Shown: piece after piece, positions 7,685 through 64,000 of the stretch | How positions within the stretch are numbered: position 1 is the stretch's first letter | Layout: each line of letters opens with the position of its first letter | IMG/VR virus record: IMGVR_UViG_3300042359_000646 | Location: 62,001 to 126,000 of that record | Source of the DNA: a virus | DNA: 64,000 bases | Reading direction: 5' to 3' (one strand) | The notes under the pieces: model-generated | The model's input: the letters and a program-made list of their open reading frames with translations, nothing else | Database searches by the model: none | What the model was told of the DNA's origin: nothing | Program-made: the position numbers and the translations under genes

Positions 7685-7960
7685 ATGTTATTAGAACCAC
7701 CAGCCGACGAGCCTATCCACAATTTCGATTTATCTCTACTCAACAAGCGCATTGCCGAAGTCAAAGACGCAGATGCTCCAATGTCCACAAAGAAACTTGC
7801 TCAAGCATTTATCGACAATACAATTATCCCTATTCTGAACACACCTCAAATCTATCAGATGTTGCAAAACCCTAAGTTTGTAGAGGAGTTATCTGGTCTT
7901 CTTGTTGGATTCCTTGTTACAGCCGCTAAAATTGCACCTCCTAAGCCTAATGAGCTATAA
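7685..7960 (+). CDS. Hypothetical protein
   Basis: 91 aa from ATG 7685. Longer in-frame starts upstream would place the start inside the promoter. An acidic N-terminal half is followed by helices (APMSTKKLAQAFIDNTIIPIL) and a hydrophobic stretch (ELSGLLVGFLVTAAKIA) that could be one membrane helix. No family recognised. Confidence 0.55.
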   Translation: MLLEPPADEPIHNFDLSLLNKRIAEVKDADAPMSTKKLAQAFIDNTIIPILNTPQIYQMLQNPKFVEELSGLLVGFLVTAAKIAPPKPNEL

Positions 7961-7988
7961 AATAATCTGCTCATATCGAGGCACACCG

Positions 7989-8162
7989 ATGAAATCGACA
8001 GTCGGACTACCAATTGGCGTTCGACTGTTTCCTCCAGATGCAAACTATCCATACAATCGTGTAGAAATTGAAACTAAAACGCAGTTGACATCTGAGCAAG
8101 AGCGCAAACTGTTCAAAATCTTGGGTGATTGGTTCCTACAATTAAAGAAAGAATCTGCATAA
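7989..8162 (+). CDS. Small hypothetical protein
   Basis: 57 aa from ATG 7989: MKSTVGLPIGVRLFPPD, an acidic strand (NRVEIETKTQL) and a terminal helix (SEQERKLFKILGDWFLQLKK). It lies just upstream of the reductase promoter. No family recognised; coding is supported by codon pattern and context only. Confidence 0.5.
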   Translation: MKSTVGLPIGVRLFPPDANYPYNRVEIETKTQLTSEQERKLFKILGDWFLQLKKESA

Positions 8163-8166
8163 ATGC

Positions 8167-8196
8167 TTGCAGAAAAGAAAGCTTCGATGCTAAAAT
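8167..8196 (+). promoter_or_regulatory. Sigma70-like promoter before ribonucleotide reductase
   Basis: TTGCAG (8167-8172), 18-bp spacer, TAAAAT (8191-8196) preceded by TGC. The gene start chosen (GTG 8225) is 29 bp downstream. A near copy of the recurring CAGAAAAAGA motif (CAGAAAAGAAA) lies in the -35/spacer. Confidence 0.5.
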
Positions 8197-8224
8197 AATA
8201 AAACTTCAAACGAGAAAATCAAAC

Positions 8225-9934
8225 GTGACTTTAGACATTACTAAATTCCCGACATGGGGAAAACAAGCTGTAACAGGCAGAATCAAGGACTGGATGAAGA
8301 ATAGCGGCTCACGCTTACCAGTTAGCTGTACAGTATTTGTGTGTGACGATAACAATATCGACGAAAGCTTTATTTTCACATCGAAAGCATTACGCAATGC
8401 AGCAGGTGTGGCGATTCATTTACCTGAAAACATTAAACCAATCAATCGTAGCTTTGAGTGGCGAGTCTATCTAGGTGAAAACTGCGAAGATGAATATGGT
8501 ACGGTTTTACCTGAAATATTCATGGAGCCTGAAACCCATGAATATGTGATTTCTGTAGCTGATTCAATGGAAGAAAGTGAATCTCTTGCAATGTCTATTG
8601 AGAACTCTTGGCTGGCGTTTCTTAACTACACAGGTACTCGTCCACTCGTAGTAGATTTAAGCCGTCTCCGTACCAAAGGAACCACAAACTCACAAGGTCT
8701 AACAGCATCTGGTGCAAGCAGCTTCAAAGCAATTTATACTGCACTATACGCTTACATTTCCGACACTTCACTCACTACCCTCTCTGGTGTCTACAGTACT
8801 CTAAATCAAGTACTTCGTCGTGGAGGCATCTTCAAAAATGGCGCAATCACACTCCACTATGACTACGACTACCCAAACGTCTCCGAGTTCCTAAACATGA
8901 CTCGCGAACAAGTCTCTTGGGCTAAACGCGCTCTTAATGTGGACGAGCATTTAATTATCTCTCATCCCGAAATTCTCGCTGACCTAATCGAGAAAATGCA
9001 AGGCGGTGACGTTTGGCTTGTTAAGAAGCTATACGACGCTAAGGGCGAACGCATCTATTTACAAGTCTGCCTTGAAATTGCTATTAAACATAGAGCAACT
9101 TGTTTATTAATGCACGGTAATCTTGGCGCTTGCACTATCGAAGAAATTCCTCAAGTAATGGCTGAAGGCGTAGAAATTCTATGCCAACTTCACGCAATTA
9201 CAGGTGTGGGAGATTCTGGTATCTACCGTAAGCCCGAAGAAGACCGTCAAGTTGGTTACGGCTTACTTGGATTAGCTAATTTGCTAGCTATTGAAGGTGT
9301 GACTTATCTTGAGTTAGTTCAGGCTTTATCACTAGCCTTCAAGGATGGTAAGTACCCTATTACAACAAAATATAGTCAGAAAGCTTTAGATATTGTTGAC
9401 TCGCTCATTTTTGGATACCGTAAGGGTGCGGAAATTGCGAAAAAGTACGGGATGGAAAGAGCATTCACCATCGCACCAACAGCAACTTGCTCGTACAATC
9501 ACGTAGACCGCGAAGGATACACAACTGCACCCGAAATCGCACCTCCAATTAATCGCTCAATCGAACGCGACTCTGCTACTTTTGGTGTCAAGAGTTATGA
9601 TTACCACCCCAAGACTGAAATCGCTGCTGAAGTGGGCTGGGAAACCTTCTTCAAGCTGAACTCTTATTTCCAACGCTTGATGGATTCAACAGGTCTTGGT
9701 CACTCAATCAGCATGAACTGGTGGAGCGATATGATTTACGCTGACCAGAAATTCATTCAAGACTTCCTCGATAGCCCAATTAAATCGCTATACTACAGCT
9801 TGCCCGTCAAGCCCAACACACAAGATAAGTCAACTTTTACCGTTCCTAGTGGCGAAATTATTGACTTTTCTATCTTCGGGTTTGAACCTCAAGCCGAATC
9901 TTCTCGTATACATTGCACATCTTGCTCGGAATAA
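8225..9934 (+). CDS. nrdA: Ribonucleotide reductase, class I-like catalytic (alpha) subunit
   Basis: 569 aa from GTG 8225, downstream of a promoter; an earlier in-frame ATG at 8129 would begin inside the preceding gene. Visible catalytic parts: Cys35 (VSCTVF), the finger loop QVCLE with Cys282 and Glu284 (usual Asn replaced by Gln280), Cys303 (GACT), APTATCS (phosphate-binding loop), the tyrosine pair Y523-Y524 (SLYY) used for radical transfer in class I enzymes, and a C-terminal CTSC redox pair. DLSRLRTKGTT-type and RRGG-type sequences also occur in class II NrdJ, so automated annotation may say class II. The N-terminal ATP cone is absent. The adjacent R2-like gene and the tyrosine pair argue for class I. 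It reduces ribonucleotides for phage DNA synthesis. Confidence 0.85.
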   Translation: MTLDITKFPTWGKQAVTGRIKDWMKNSGSRLPVSCTVFVCDDNNIDESFIFTSKALRNAAGVAIHLPENIKPINRSFEWRVYLGENCEDEYGTVLPEIFMEPETHEYVISVADSMEESESLAMSIENSWLAFLNYTGTRPLVVDLSRLRTKGTTNSQGLTASGASSFKAIYTALYAYISDTSLTTLSGVYSTLNQVLRRGGIFKNGAITLHYDYDYPNVSEFLNMTREQVSWAKRALNVDEHLIISHPEILADLIEKMQGGDVWLVKKLYDAKGERIYLQVCLEIAIKHRATCLLMHGNLGACTIEEIPQVMAEGVEILCQLHAITGVGDSGIYRKPEEDRQVGYGLLGLANLLAIEGVTYLELVQALSLAFKDGKYPITTKYSQKALDIVDSLIFGYRKGAEIAKKYGMERAFTIAPTATCSYNHVDREGYTTAPEIAPPINRSIERDSATFGVKSYDYHPKTEIAAEVGWETFFKLNSYFQRLMDSTGLGHSISMNWWSDMIYADQKFIQDFLDSPIKSLYYSLPVKPNTQDKSTFTVPSGEIIDFSIFGFEPQAESSRIHCTSCSE

Positions 9935-9938
9935 TGCC

Positions 9939-10676
9939 ATGACTTCTACTTCCAATTACACCGACCTACTCACAAAAAAAAGAAAATGGACACCTGTTCG
10001 CCCTACCTACGAACCTGTAGTTTCTGGTGCTGAAGATGTTCTTGCCAGAGCATTAGCCTTAAGAGCGCTCGAAATCCCTGTCGGTAACTTTATCGAAGCT
10101 GCTACTAAGAAGGAAATACCTGCAACTAGCCTCGAACTTCTCGAAAGCAACATTGTCGATGAGATTCGTCACGACCAAGCTCTGCAATACGCTGCTGACT
10201 CATTTGGAAATCGGTTGCACAACTACGACAAAGAAGCTAGCGCAATCGTCAACGCTTGGGTAAACGCACCCGAACATACTGTACTTAAGGCTATGGTGCT
10301 TGAGCGCTCTGTATTCTTTGTGTTGCTCCCTATCTTACGTTTTCTAGGTAATAGCGCCCTTAGAACCGTTTCTAGTGACATCTCAATGGACGAGCAGATT
10401 CATGTTGTCACCAATTCTCTTTTCTGCAAAGATATGGGAATCGAACTGACCACTAATCTTGACCGCTTACGCAAAACTACTGTCGCTTGGATGGTAGATA
10501 AGGTTGGTGAAGTGACCGCAGCAGCCAACCCTAATCATGCAAGTAAGGACTTCTGGATTCGTCAATCAGATTCCCTCCTATATCGTGGAGTAGCCCCTGA
10601 GTTGGCTGAAACACGTAGAAGTAGAATGCCAGCTTTCTTCGAGTTGGACAACAGAAACACAGCTAACTACGTTTGA
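9939..10676 (+). CDS. nrdB: Ribonucleotide reductase, small R2-like (beta) subunit
   Basis: 245 aa, starting 5 nt after the alpha subunit. A ferritin-like four-helix pattern carries the R2 metal ligands: E75-x-x-H78 (DEIRH), E122 (VLERSVFF), E152-x-x-H155 (MDEQIH, like the RDExLH of R2), and Glu45 as likely first ligand. The position of the usual radical tyrosine, four residues after the first His, is Leu82; a tyrosine sits two further on (Tyr84). The protein is about 100 aa shorter than typical R2. The C-terminus ends in NYV, possibly the peptide that docks to alpha. The R2 call is well supported; the radical or cofactor type is open. Confidence 0.75.
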   Translation: MTSTSNYTDLLTKKRKWTPVRPTYEPVVSGAEDVLARALALRALEIPVGNFIEAATKKEIPATSLELLESNIVDEIRHDQALQYAADSFGNRLHNYDKEASAIVNAWVNAPEHTVLKAMVLERSVFFVLLPILRFLGNSALRTVSSDISMDEQIHVVTNSLFCKDMGIELTTNLDRLRKTTVAWMVDKVGEVTAAANPNHASKDFWIRQSDSLLYRGVAPELAETRRSRMPAFFELDNRNTANYV

Positions 10677-10704
10677 GCCTAGCTTTGACATAGTTACATC
10701 TTAG

Positions 10705-10733
10705 GAGGGATGCTATTGTCCCTCTTTTTATTT
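10705..10733 (+). terminator. Rho-independent terminator after reductase genes
   Basis: GAGGGA (10705-10710), 8-nt loop, TCCCTC (10719-10724), then TTTTTATTT. It closes the nrdA-nrdB transcription unit. Confidence 0.75.
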
Positions 10734-10744
10734 ATATTGACAAC

Positions 10745-11134
10745 ATGAGATTCTTCAACTACCGCTTCCATCAAATTCACGGCATCTCCAAAGCTAATTG
10801 GAACCCGTACACAATGACTGATTGGAAGCAACAAGGACTTCCGTTCATCGATTTTGGTACTCGCATTGATTTTGGACAACATCACCCAGAATGTTTTCCT
10901 GACTATAACCAAGTACGACTTCGAGTTGGTAATTGGCGACTATCACTTCATTTTAATTTTGTAAACTGCGAGTTTGATGAAGACTTCGCGGGTCGTCTAC
11001 TTCCCCACTGGCAAGTGTGCAGAGATGCGGGTTTTTCTGTTGCAGATATCACCAAAGGTATCAGTAAATGGTCAAGTGGAGGTGTAAAAACTGAGGAAGC
11101 TATCGAGAATATTAAACGCTTAATGGGTAAATAA
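10745..11134 (+). CDS. Hypothetical protein
   Basis: 129 aa directly after the reductase terminator; TTGACA lies a few bases upstream of the ATG. Rich in aromatic residues (FFNYRFHQIHG, then WRLSLHFNFVNC), suggesting a compact beta fold, with a basic C-terminal helix (EEAIENIKRLMGK). No family recognised. Confidence 0.6.
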   Translation: MRFFNYRFHQIHGISKANWNPYTMTDWKQQGLPFIDFGTRIDFGQHHPECFPDYNQVRLRVGNWRLSLHFNFVNCEFDEDFAGRLLPHWQVCRDAGFSVADITKGISKWSSGGVKTEEAIENIKRLMGK

Positions 11135-12311: not shown

Positions 12312-12466
12312 CAGTTTATATAGTTTGGCGGCGGATTTACGGTGACGAAGATTCCCAATTAGAAGAAATTTTCCTGTCTCGACCATCAGCCGAAGCTTAT
12401 GTAAAAGAGAAAAAAGAAGACTACGACTTAGACCACACTATCCAAGAACGAGAAGCAAAACCATGA
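12308..12466 (+). CDS. 52-aa paralogue B (MTVYxVWR family)
   Basis: 52 aa: MTVYIVWRRIYGDED, then EEIFLSRPSAEAYVKEKKED. Same length and same order of conserved residues as the gene at 11899 (MTVY-VWR, EIF, SAE-YVK-KKE-Y-L-HTI), so a gene duplication. It overlaps the ATG of thyX by four bases. Confidence 0.65.
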   Translation: MTVYIVWRRIYGDEDSQLEEIFLSRPSAEAYVKEKKEDYDLDHTIQEREAKP

Positions 12467-13230
12467 CGCAAAATAAAGTTGAATTAATTGGCTATTATGG
12501 CGGCGACAAGCGCTCTTGCATTTCCGCTTGGCAATCTACTACCGAAGAACTTGGCATCAAGCTTCCAGAGTCAATCCCCGACCGTGTAGATGCTATCTTC
12601 GAGGCAATTGCTAAGACTAAGAAGAAATCCCCTTGGGAATTACTTGATTTCCTTGCCAGCGAGGGACATCACACCCCTATGGAAAAGGGTATACTAGATT
12701 TCCAGATTACAGGGGATATTGCAAGCCACATACATGCGTTAAAACATCGTATTTCCCAAATCAATTCGGAATCTGCAAGGTATAAGGAGTTTGTGGCTGA
12801 CCGCTTTTATATCCCTGAAGATTGGACTGGTTTGACTTTGCAAGAAGATTTTCTCGAAGATAATGGTGAAATTGGTTACGAATCAGGGCAGTATTGGACA
12901 GACGTACTAAAACATGAGTCTGAGCGTCACTTCAAACTGTACCATCAAGCCGTCAAAGACATCTCGAAACCTTTAGGTCGTAAACGTGCAAAAGAATCTG
13001 CGAGATATTTCCTCGGCTACAATACTCAACTCAACTTTGATTGGCAGATGAATTTTCGTAGCTTTGTCAATATTCAAAAACTTCGTAATTCGCCTCATGC
13101 TCAACGTGAAATAAAATCTATAGCCAACACAATGTTGTATCTTATAGAAAATATCCCTGACAAACCGTTTCAATATACTTTAAAGGCATTCGGACTAGAA
13201 TCTACCGTCGAAGACAATCTATTTCTTTAG
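12463..13230 (+). CDS. thyX: Flavin-dependent thymidylate synthase ThyX
   Basis: 255 aa. The ThyX signature RHRxxSxNExSxRY appears as KHRISQINSESARY from residue 94: the first Arg is Lys and the usual Glu is Ser, while the HR, S, N, S and RY positions are kept. ASEGHHTPMEKG matches the conserved N-terminal block and RKRAKESARYFLGY the C-terminal substrate-binding block. It makes dTMP from dUMP using FAD, NADPH and methylene-tetrahydrofolate, in the same pathway as the reductase and dNMP kinase. A hairpin terminator follows. Confidence 0.9.
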   Translation: MTQNKVELIGYYGGDKRSCISAWQSTTEELGIKLPESIPDRVDAIFEAIAKTKKKSPWELLDFLASEGHHTPMEKGILDFQITGDIASHIHALKHRISQINSESARYKEFVADRFYIPEDWTGLTLQEDFLEDNGEIGYESGQYWTDVLKHESERHFKLYHQAVKDISKPLGRKRAKESARYFLGYNTQLNFDWQMNFRSFVNIQKLRNSPHAQREIKSIANTMLYLIENIPDKPFQYTLKAFGLESTVEDNLFL

Positions 13231-61819: not shown

Positions 61820-64000
61820 AGGAACATTGTCTAAACTATTTCCGATATTATTGGGAAGCCCAGTCACATTCACTGTAGTAACCAGTCCACCCTTGATAGT
61901 ATTTAGCGCCGTAGCGGTCGTGCTGACCACTGTAAGTGCAACTGGTATCACTTCACCAAATGTGACGCTGACTGGCTGATTAAGCGCACCTCCGTTGATT
62001 ATCTGCGTAGTGAACGTACTCGACTTAGCAGCCCACTTTTGCCCAAAGTATTGAAACACGCTATTTGGCTTTATTGCGTTCTGTGTCCACGTAAATGACG
62101 TACTCAAGCTTGCACCGTCGAACACATCTTTATGCAGCTTGAATGTTGCGCCCTTGATTGCTTCTTGTAAGTTCTGCGCCCCAGTAATTGTCACATCGCT
62201 CAATATGTTGCGGTCACGTACATTTGAGGTCAGATAAGTCAGCGAGTCTTTGAGTCCATTCTTATCCTGTGTTGGGTTGAGTTGATTAACTGGTTTGCGT
62301 ACTGTAGCGCTAGGAGGTCGCCCCAAAGCTGTACTGAAGCTTGAACTCTGTATGTTGCTCTTGAAGCTGGCATCGGCAACTGTGCGGATTGTTCCGTAGA
62401 TTGAGTAGGAGTCGTCTTTGAAACTGGCATCATTAGCTGCGGTTGAATAGGATGGTACTGCTGAACCATCTTTTTTCTGCTGTGTTGGAATCACCTTGTT
62501 GACATCAATACTTGGCGGTACACCTTGTCCTATTACCGCATCATCAGGCACATTCATGTAACTAAATGGACGATAGTAAGTGCCGCTATATAAATCATTT
62601 TGGTTGATAGAACCTAACAAACCATTTAGGTCATTGAATGTTTCATAAATTCTATCAATGTTTTGCTTTGTTGTTTTGCTAGGACGAATCATGTAGCGAG
62701 TATGTTCGTAAACTTCTTCCCCAGTGGTCAAATAGATAGGGTTCTTGCCCCAGAGCGAAGCTGCTTGGTCATTATACTCAGGGTTGCCACTAACAGCCGC
62801 AGAAATCGAGTATCTCGACTTACTAACTATCATCAAGTTAGGAACCCAGTCAGGACTAGGGAAAAGTACTGCTACGGGGTCTTGAGTGCTGGGCGAGTTA
62901 GGTAGTTGAGCTTTGGGAATATACTCAACGTTCCAATCAACTTTGTCGCCATCTTTGTAATATTTGCTAAACGGCTCGATAAAATAGTCTACGCGCTCAG
63001 TGATAGGGATTTTGCGGTATAGGAAGCTTTCAAGTTTGCATTTTGCTTTGTAGACAGAAAGATAATAATACTGAAGACTTATTGGGTCATTTGCAATCTG
63101 ATTCCCAATTTGAAGCAGAAAAGTAAGGTTGATGTATGCCTGAATACTACCTTGAGTCCAGTTTGCCGCATCTTCATTGGCAAAACGCTTAATTGTCCAT
63201 CCTTCAGTCTGTTCAGCTACCAATACTTGCGAATTAGACTTAAGGAGGTTCTGGTACTGCTCTGGCACTTCAATTTTGACGTAATTGCCCGACCTATCCA
63301 ATACTTGAGGCTTAATGTCAAGTTCTAGAGGCTGATATACAAAATCAGTCTGCTTGATACTTGTTACGCGCCACACGATAGGTCTTGCAAAGATATTTTG
63401 CCCCACCATACCCATAGCTTGATTGGCAAGATTGCCTAACAAACCTTTCAGAGCATTTTGTTGAAGTGCAGGATTACTTTGCATCCTGTTAAGAATTGAA
63501 GTGTCAATATTGATTGGAGCCATCGGGTCAGTAACTAGCTCTAGCGCTGAGTGGCTGAAACCATAAGTGCCACTAATTTCCGACTGCGGTTGCCCGTATT
63601 TGTAAAGCGTAATCTTAAATTGCTTACTTAAACCACCGTTATCAACAAACACACTAAGGTCGCGAGGAACGAGGCTGCCATCACCTACTTCTACTGGAGG
63701 TAAGTGGGGATTGCTGTCACCTTCATAAAGTACATACTCATCATCGGTCACTTGGACGTAAGTATTTTGAAGTCCGTAGTTAGTACCACCATTCCAATTG
63801 AGAAGCGTGTTCTTGTAGCAAGGTGTCTCGTTGTCCGTCAAAGTAATTTCAGTAAGAGGCGTAGCCGTAATTGAGCGTCCAGAACCAAGTGCAACGTAAT
63901 CGATGCCAGATTGTGAGTAAATAGCTACTTTGCCGTCAAGGATAGCGCGTTCGTCGAGAAAAGAGCGCAAGCTGAAGAAATCGGTGTTAGCTGGTCTATA
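61775..64000 (-). CDS. Large virion protein, N-terminus beyond window
   Basis: The frame is open through the right edge (YRPANTDFFSLRS just before a possible TTG at 63970), so the gene very likely starts beyond 64000; 740 residues are visible. Beta-rich start; region ~190-240 (PIVWRVTSIKQTDFVYQPLE) and a tail of Thr/Gly/Asn repeats (NTIKGGLVTTVNVTGLPNNI). No enzyme motif. Probably a baseplate or tail component. Confidence 0.55.
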   Translation of the reverse strand, partial: YRPANTDFFSLRSFLDERAILDGKVAIYSQSGIDYVALGSGRSITATPLTEITLTDNETPCYKNTLLNWNGGTNYGLQNTYVQVTDDEYVLYEGDSNPHLPPVEVGDGSLVPRDLSVFVDNGGLSKQFKITLYKYGQPQSEISGTYGFSHSALELVTDPMAPINIDTSILNRMQSNPALQQNALKGLLGNLANQAMGMVGQNIFARPIVWRVTSIKQTDFVYQPLELDIKPQVLDRSGNYVKIEVPEQYQNLLKSNSQVLVAEQTEGWTIKRFANEDAANWTQGSIQAYINLTFLLQIGNQIANDPISLQYYYLSVYKAKCKLESFLYRKIPITERVDYFIEPFSKYYKDGDKVDWNVEYIPKAQLPNSPSTQDPVAVLFPSPDWVPNLMIVSKSRYSISAAVSGNPEYNDQAASLWGKNPIYLTTGEEVYEHTRYMIRPSKTTKQNIDRIYETFNDLNGLLGSINQNDLYSGTYYRPFSYMNVPDDAVIGQGVPPSIDVNKVIPTQQKKDGSAVPSYSTAANDASFKDDSYSIYGTIRTVADASFKSNIQSSSFSTALGRPPSATVRKPVNQLNPTQDKNGLKDSLTYLTSNVRDRNILSDVTITGAQNLQEAIKGATFKLHKDVFDGASLSTSFTWTQNAIKPNSVFQYFGQKWAAKSSTFTTQIINGGALNQPVSVTFGEVIPVALTVVSTTATALNTIKGGLVTTVNVTGLPNNIGNSLDNVPLNFGRWVQSGGSGL

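Follow-up and report, generated by a model that had tools for sequence, protein, structure and literature searches.

A class Ø ribonucleotide reductase with leucine at the radical-tyrosine site and a long loop-1 insertion in its α subunit, from a relative of large freshwater cyanophages

We analysed a stretch of 64,000 nucleotides (the window), positions 62,001 to 126,000 of the IMG/VR virus record IMGVR_UViG_3300042359_000646; all coordinates of the two genes described here are those of the window, plus strand. The genes encode the subunits of a ribonucleotide reductase (RNR). The first, at 8225-9934, has a GTG start and encodes an α subunit of 569 residues. The second, at 9939-10676, runs from an ATG at 9939 to a stop codon at 10674-10676 and encodes a small ferritin-like β subunit of 245 residues. 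It adjoins the α gene, starting 4 bases past its stop, and in every completely sequenced operon of PMC9531940 β is likewise directly 3' of a class Ø α.

The α subunit matches the cryo-EM structure of the S-CBP4 α subunit (7urg) with an E-value of 8.5e-119 in phmmer, and the same structure is the top Foldseek match (E 1.6e-44). In a comparison of profiles, rather than a tree, its barrel is closest to the class Ø clade (E 9.3e-246; next best 1.6e-15). As is usual in class Ø, α gives no match to an ATP cone, though the α subunits of the related phages Pam2 and PA-SR01 do. Further, there is a radical-transfer dyad on βJ, Tyr523-Tyr524 (9791-9796), which is invariant in the α alignment, and a C-terminal redox tail, CTSC (9914-9925), of the CxxC/CxC kind described for class Ø in PMC9531940. 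The finger loop with the catalytic Cys282 (9062-9076) reads QVCLE where the family usually has NVCLE. The latter is found in 30 of 35 class Ø proteins in the literature and is not absolute: Gln also replaces the conserved Asn in the related contigs L001, L019, L021 and L031. This replacement could affect activity.

The β ORF is a real gene, as judged from a match to phrog_6799 in PHROGs ("ribonucleotide reductase class Ia beta subunit", E = 7.9e-90) and from a dN/dS of about 0.10 against its closest relative (L001, 92% identical), that is, purifying selection. In tblastn 56 phage records match it at 31-52% identity, and nearly all of them are cyanophages. The AF2 model has a pLDDT of 91, and its best PDB folds are R2 proteins, Chlamydia class Ic among them; the Foldseek E-values are modest, 2e-3 at best. 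A phmmer search of the PDB with β alone gives no match. Pfam does not recognise β either, in agreement with the remark in PMC9531940 that for class Ø β homology to Pfam families is almost undetectable. Further down the list of structure matches there are generic ferritin-like folds, as there might be if the protein were a ferritin-like oxidase or an inactive remnant and no RNR subunit. We regard this as very unlikely, given the position directly after a class Ø α, the purifying selection and a penultimate Tyr that is kept in 90 of the 90 relatives where the residue is present.

By sequence, the ORF is the β subunit of a Cyano SP/class Ø RNR, a family whose β was published in 2019 and 2022 (PMC6370689, PMC9531940). 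Harrison et al. (2019, PMC6370689) proposed a new subclass on account of the missing Tyr. Burnim et al. (2022, PMC9531940) give a mean length of 240 residues for class Ø β, a radical site occupied by Phe or Leu, "much like class Ic", and an end one residue past a conserved Tyr. The present β has Leu82 and a penultimate Tyr244 (10668-10670). The earlier note had placed it among the smallest R2-like proteins: its 245 residues are few for an R2 but normal within its own family.

Six residues are predicted to bind the metals: E45 (10071-10073), E75 and H78 of the first ExxH motif (10161-10172), E122 (10302-10304), and E152 and H155 of the second (10392-10403). They are the same set as in P-SSP7, where the ligands are E42, E71, H74, E117, E147 and H150 (PMC6370689). 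Second-sphere aspartates directly precede both motifs, D74 the first and D151 the second (10389-10403 with the motif). The five ligands that the earlier note had named are all found at their codons; it had overlooked E45, D74 and D151. We surveyed 94 distinct β sequences, of which 93 cover site 82. In these 93, W17, E45, D74, E75, H78, D151, E152 and H155 are invariant, while E122 is kept in 92. Trp17 (9987-9989) is a candidate for radical transfer; it lies outside the profile alignment described below and is presumably the equivalent of E. coli W48.

The radical-tyrosine site is occupied by Leu82 (CTG, 10182-10184), and Tyr84 (TAC, 10188-10190) follows two residues on. To fix the register, a profile of 54 β relatives was aligned with one built from nine ordinary R2 sequences of public genomes. 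E75 and H78 fall on the R2 ExxH motif and Leu82 on a column where each of the nine has Tyr, free of gaps (P = 3.4e-4). A Tyr hidden by a local gap, which the earlier note had named as the outcome that would overturn its reading, is thereby ruled out.

Leu82 is not a peculiarity of this protein, as had been supposed. Site 82 is Leu in 88 of the 93 relatives, Phe in 5 and Tyr in none, so that Leu or Phe is the rule of the family, also in the published sets (PMC6370689, PMC9531940). Leucine at the radical site is thus an already published feature, correctly rediscovered from the sequence. We found no biochemical characterisation of any class Ø β in the literature, and a 2026 preprint still terms class Ø biochemically uncharacterised (PMC12918982).

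One possibility raised earlier is that the stable radical sits on Tyr84 instead of at site 82. A Tyr is present at site 84 here and in 81 of the 93 relatives. However, the site is Phe in 10 and Met in 2 of them, with the ligands kept, and the Phe is found even in the 92% identical L001; on these 12 replacements Tyr84 was rejected as the shifted radical site. Further, a residue at +6 instead of +4 on the helix should face elsewhere. We therefore consider a Tyr84 radical improbable.

Our main reading, to which we give a probability of roughly 0.75, is that this is a radical-generating class Ø β, likely with its oxidant held by a dimetal centre, from a freshwater siphophage of the Pseudanabaena type. 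Which metals are bound, what oxidises them, where the hole resides and in which order it moves on are inferred, the metal-stored oxidant by analogy with class Ic. The six ligands would bind two metals, Mn and/or Fe, which would be activated by O2 or a related oxidant. Since the ligand set is full and Leu82, the residue at the Tyr site, is inert and unable to carry a radical, the high-valent dimetal centre would keep the oxidising equivalent itself, in class Ic fashion. The hole would leave β probably via Trp17/Asp151 and Tyr244, pass to the α dyad Tyr523-Tyr524 and reach Cys282, where ribonucleotide reduction would start. A metal-only cofactor was one of the possibilities named in the earlier note. 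The complete ligands, the R2-like predicted fold and the class-Ic-like replacement of Tyr favour it; the cofactor itself is predicted.

The resemblance to class Ic could also be read as descent, that is, β as a true class Ic member with a Mn/Fe centre of the Chlamydia trachomatis type. Both have a redox-inert residue at the Tyr site, intact dimetal ligands and probably a metal-stored oxidant, and the best PDB sequence matches of β are Chlamydia NrdB, weak and not significant at E 0.15-0.19. In contrast, the present β has 245 residues against about 346 in class Ic and lacks the C-terminal α-binding tail, and its partner is a class Ø α, not NrdAz. In the published β trees and similarity networks (PMC6370689) this clade and class Ic are separate; the analogy is therefore functional only, and membership in class Ic has a very small probability. 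Even less probable is a metal-free enzyme of class Ie type with a DOPA radical. The radical site is atypical, as such an enzyme would have it, but all carboxylate ligands are kept in the family and the Tyr that would become DOPA is absent from the site. Family models find no NrdI in the 142-kb record, which is possibly incomplete, nor a second R2 or a monomeric class II RNR. A dimetal-held oxidant is the reading that we consider most likely for β.

What is unusual in this operon is the architecture of α, which the earlier note does not mention. Class Ø α subunits are typically minimal with a short loop 1, a trait that does not define the class, and the present one departs from it. Measured from AGVxxH of the βB strand to ASG, the spacing comes to 22-25 residues in some 90 other class Ø α, but to 101 here and in L001 and L002, the only ones among about 95 to share the long insertion. 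A scan of IMG/VR with the insert only matches these two contigs solely. The insertion in loop 1 covers residues 66-144 (79 residues, 8420-8656). A second extension, 19 residues in the αB helix region (residues 171-189, 8735-8791), is seen in an ASG-to-RRGG spacing of 37 vs 18, and two helices are predicted for it. Its origin as a second helix duplication was rejected, as it was not significant after removal of the native SF start. Compared with S-CBP4 and P-SSP7, the present RNR shares the α match to 7urg and the β size, ligands, Leu/Phe site and penultimate Tyr. It differs from them in the 79-residue insertion, the 19-residue extension and QVCLE, and its carrier is a relative of large freshwater siphophages.

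Within the insert, residues 108-130 (8546-8614) read VISVADSMEESESLAMSIENSWL, which resembles the canonical VFVVEDSMEGxNGIEASWR and appears to be a degenerate copy of the class Ø effector-site strand and αA helix (hhalign P 2.6e-5; 0 of 150 shuffles reach it). The original strand-αA-strand segment, residues 35-66 (8327-8422), still aligns with the canonical segment (hhalign P 1.9e-18), but has lost the DSMEG signature and reads VCDD-----NNIDESF. In the AF2 model each copy is predicted as strand-helix-strand; the pLDDT is about 85-89 for most of the second and 59-70 in the stretches beside it. The dN/dS of the insert is about 0.32 vs 0.04 in the 190-360 barrel stretch, indicating a weaker but real constraint.

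From its position and its VxDSxE motif the insert was first suspected to be taken from a monomeric class II RNR of a host or phage. Compared with class II, the insert alone hardly outscores shuffles, if at all, and is partly out of register (hhalign P 0.069), while residues 50-201 as a whole beat insert shuffles in 150 of 150 cases. To the class I α of Pam2 and PA-SR01 the insert shows no similarity. We favour an internal duplication of a class Ø α segment over transfer from class II, because the copy of class Ø's own segment scored far better. Dimerisation or effector control is probably changed by this second effector/αA module within loop 1. In short, β is a new member of a known family, while an α with a duplicated loop 1 is new.

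Loop 1 sits between βB and αB and caps the dimer bundle (PMC9669993). In monomeric class II RNRs its length suffices to mimic the dimer interface, and this length, together with structure prediction, has been used to find monomeric enzymes (PMC9669993). For comparison, the α subunit of S-CBP4 forms a dimer with TTP (PMC9531940). Like the L. leichmannii type, the present α has a long βB-αB insertion with a DSxE strand-helix segment, and by the length of loop 1 it would therefore be of the monomeric type. In other respects it differs from monomeric class II: it has a Tyr dyad, a class Ø barrel and a β subunit, and by sequence it does not belong to that family with its B12 pocket. TIGR02505 gives 12 bits (E 0.04) against a cut-off of 340 bits. 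In a viral structure library, a B12-RNR insertion-domain protein aligns with the α model at a TMq of 0.60. Class I and dimeric class II structures of the PDB reach about 0.41-0.53, a difference that is suggestive only. One possibility is that α is monomeric but still dependent on β, with the loop-1 copy and the extended αB mimicking the second protomer in cis, evolved separately within class Ø by self-duplication. We hold this to be a tentative and rather doubtful reading, a prediction and not a result.

By megablast the region is tied to two Pseudanabaena phages, Pam2 (ON014754.1, 143 kb; L130) and PA-SR01 (MT234670.1, 137 kb; L131), similar in size to the present record of 142 kb. The ORF upstream of the RNR genes (7902-8162) is 80-90% identical to its counterparts in Pam2, PA-SR01 and L001, and the one downstream (10745-11134) is 70% identical to those of Pam2 and PA-SR01. 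Between the same neighbours, the RNR of these two phages is an ordinary class I nrdAB that has an ATP cone by Pfam and the β motif ENIHSRSY, Tyr present; their β has no significant BLASTP similarity to the present one. In the window this position (7902-11134) holds class Ø, which is also found in L001. Since the two types lie at an identical position, flanked by shared genes, class Ø and class I RNR have, judging from gene order and identity, been exchanged in place between related phages.

Thymidylate synthase varies independently of the RNR type, so all four combinations occur: ThyX is found in the window (12463-13230) and in PA-SR01 (L131 9435-10259), ThyA in L001 (8154-9092) and Pam2 (L130 11138-12064).

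A few further observations concern the relatives. The class I β of PA-SR01 (L131 6277-8367, 696 residues) appears to be interrupted by an intein within its second metal motif (DEA / CLTGDHE ... VTGN / CHLQ). Its annotation is that of a plain β, and the intein is unmentioned in the phage's paper. Nodularia phage kac65v162 (L112, 147 kb) encodes an intein-containing class II RNR together with a cobalamin adenosyltransferase, which is a third way of supplying an RNR among large phages of filamentous cyanobacteria. In Microcystis phage Mic1 the class Ø β lies about 12 kb from α (L009 5001-5771, L018 2438-3949) and continues several residues beyond the C-terminal Tyr. Marine bacteria have been listed as class Ø carriers (PMC9531940). 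In a single pattern scan, all 11 bacterial or archaeal contigs with a class Ø β (L099-L109) were seen to contain genes for a portal, scaffold or exonuclease of T7-like cyanophages as well, and these "bacterial" copies therefore look like phage contigs.

If the monomer prediction for α is true, a monomeric-type α that still needs β would be new, and the duplicated loop 1 offers a test of whether a dimer-mimicking α can arise twice. The present β is one more candidate, from freshwater, for determining the class Ø cofactor. Further, the natural exchange of RNR types provides a matched comparison of the costs and gains of a Tyr-based class I and a Tyr-less class Ø enzyme in phages of the same kind of host.
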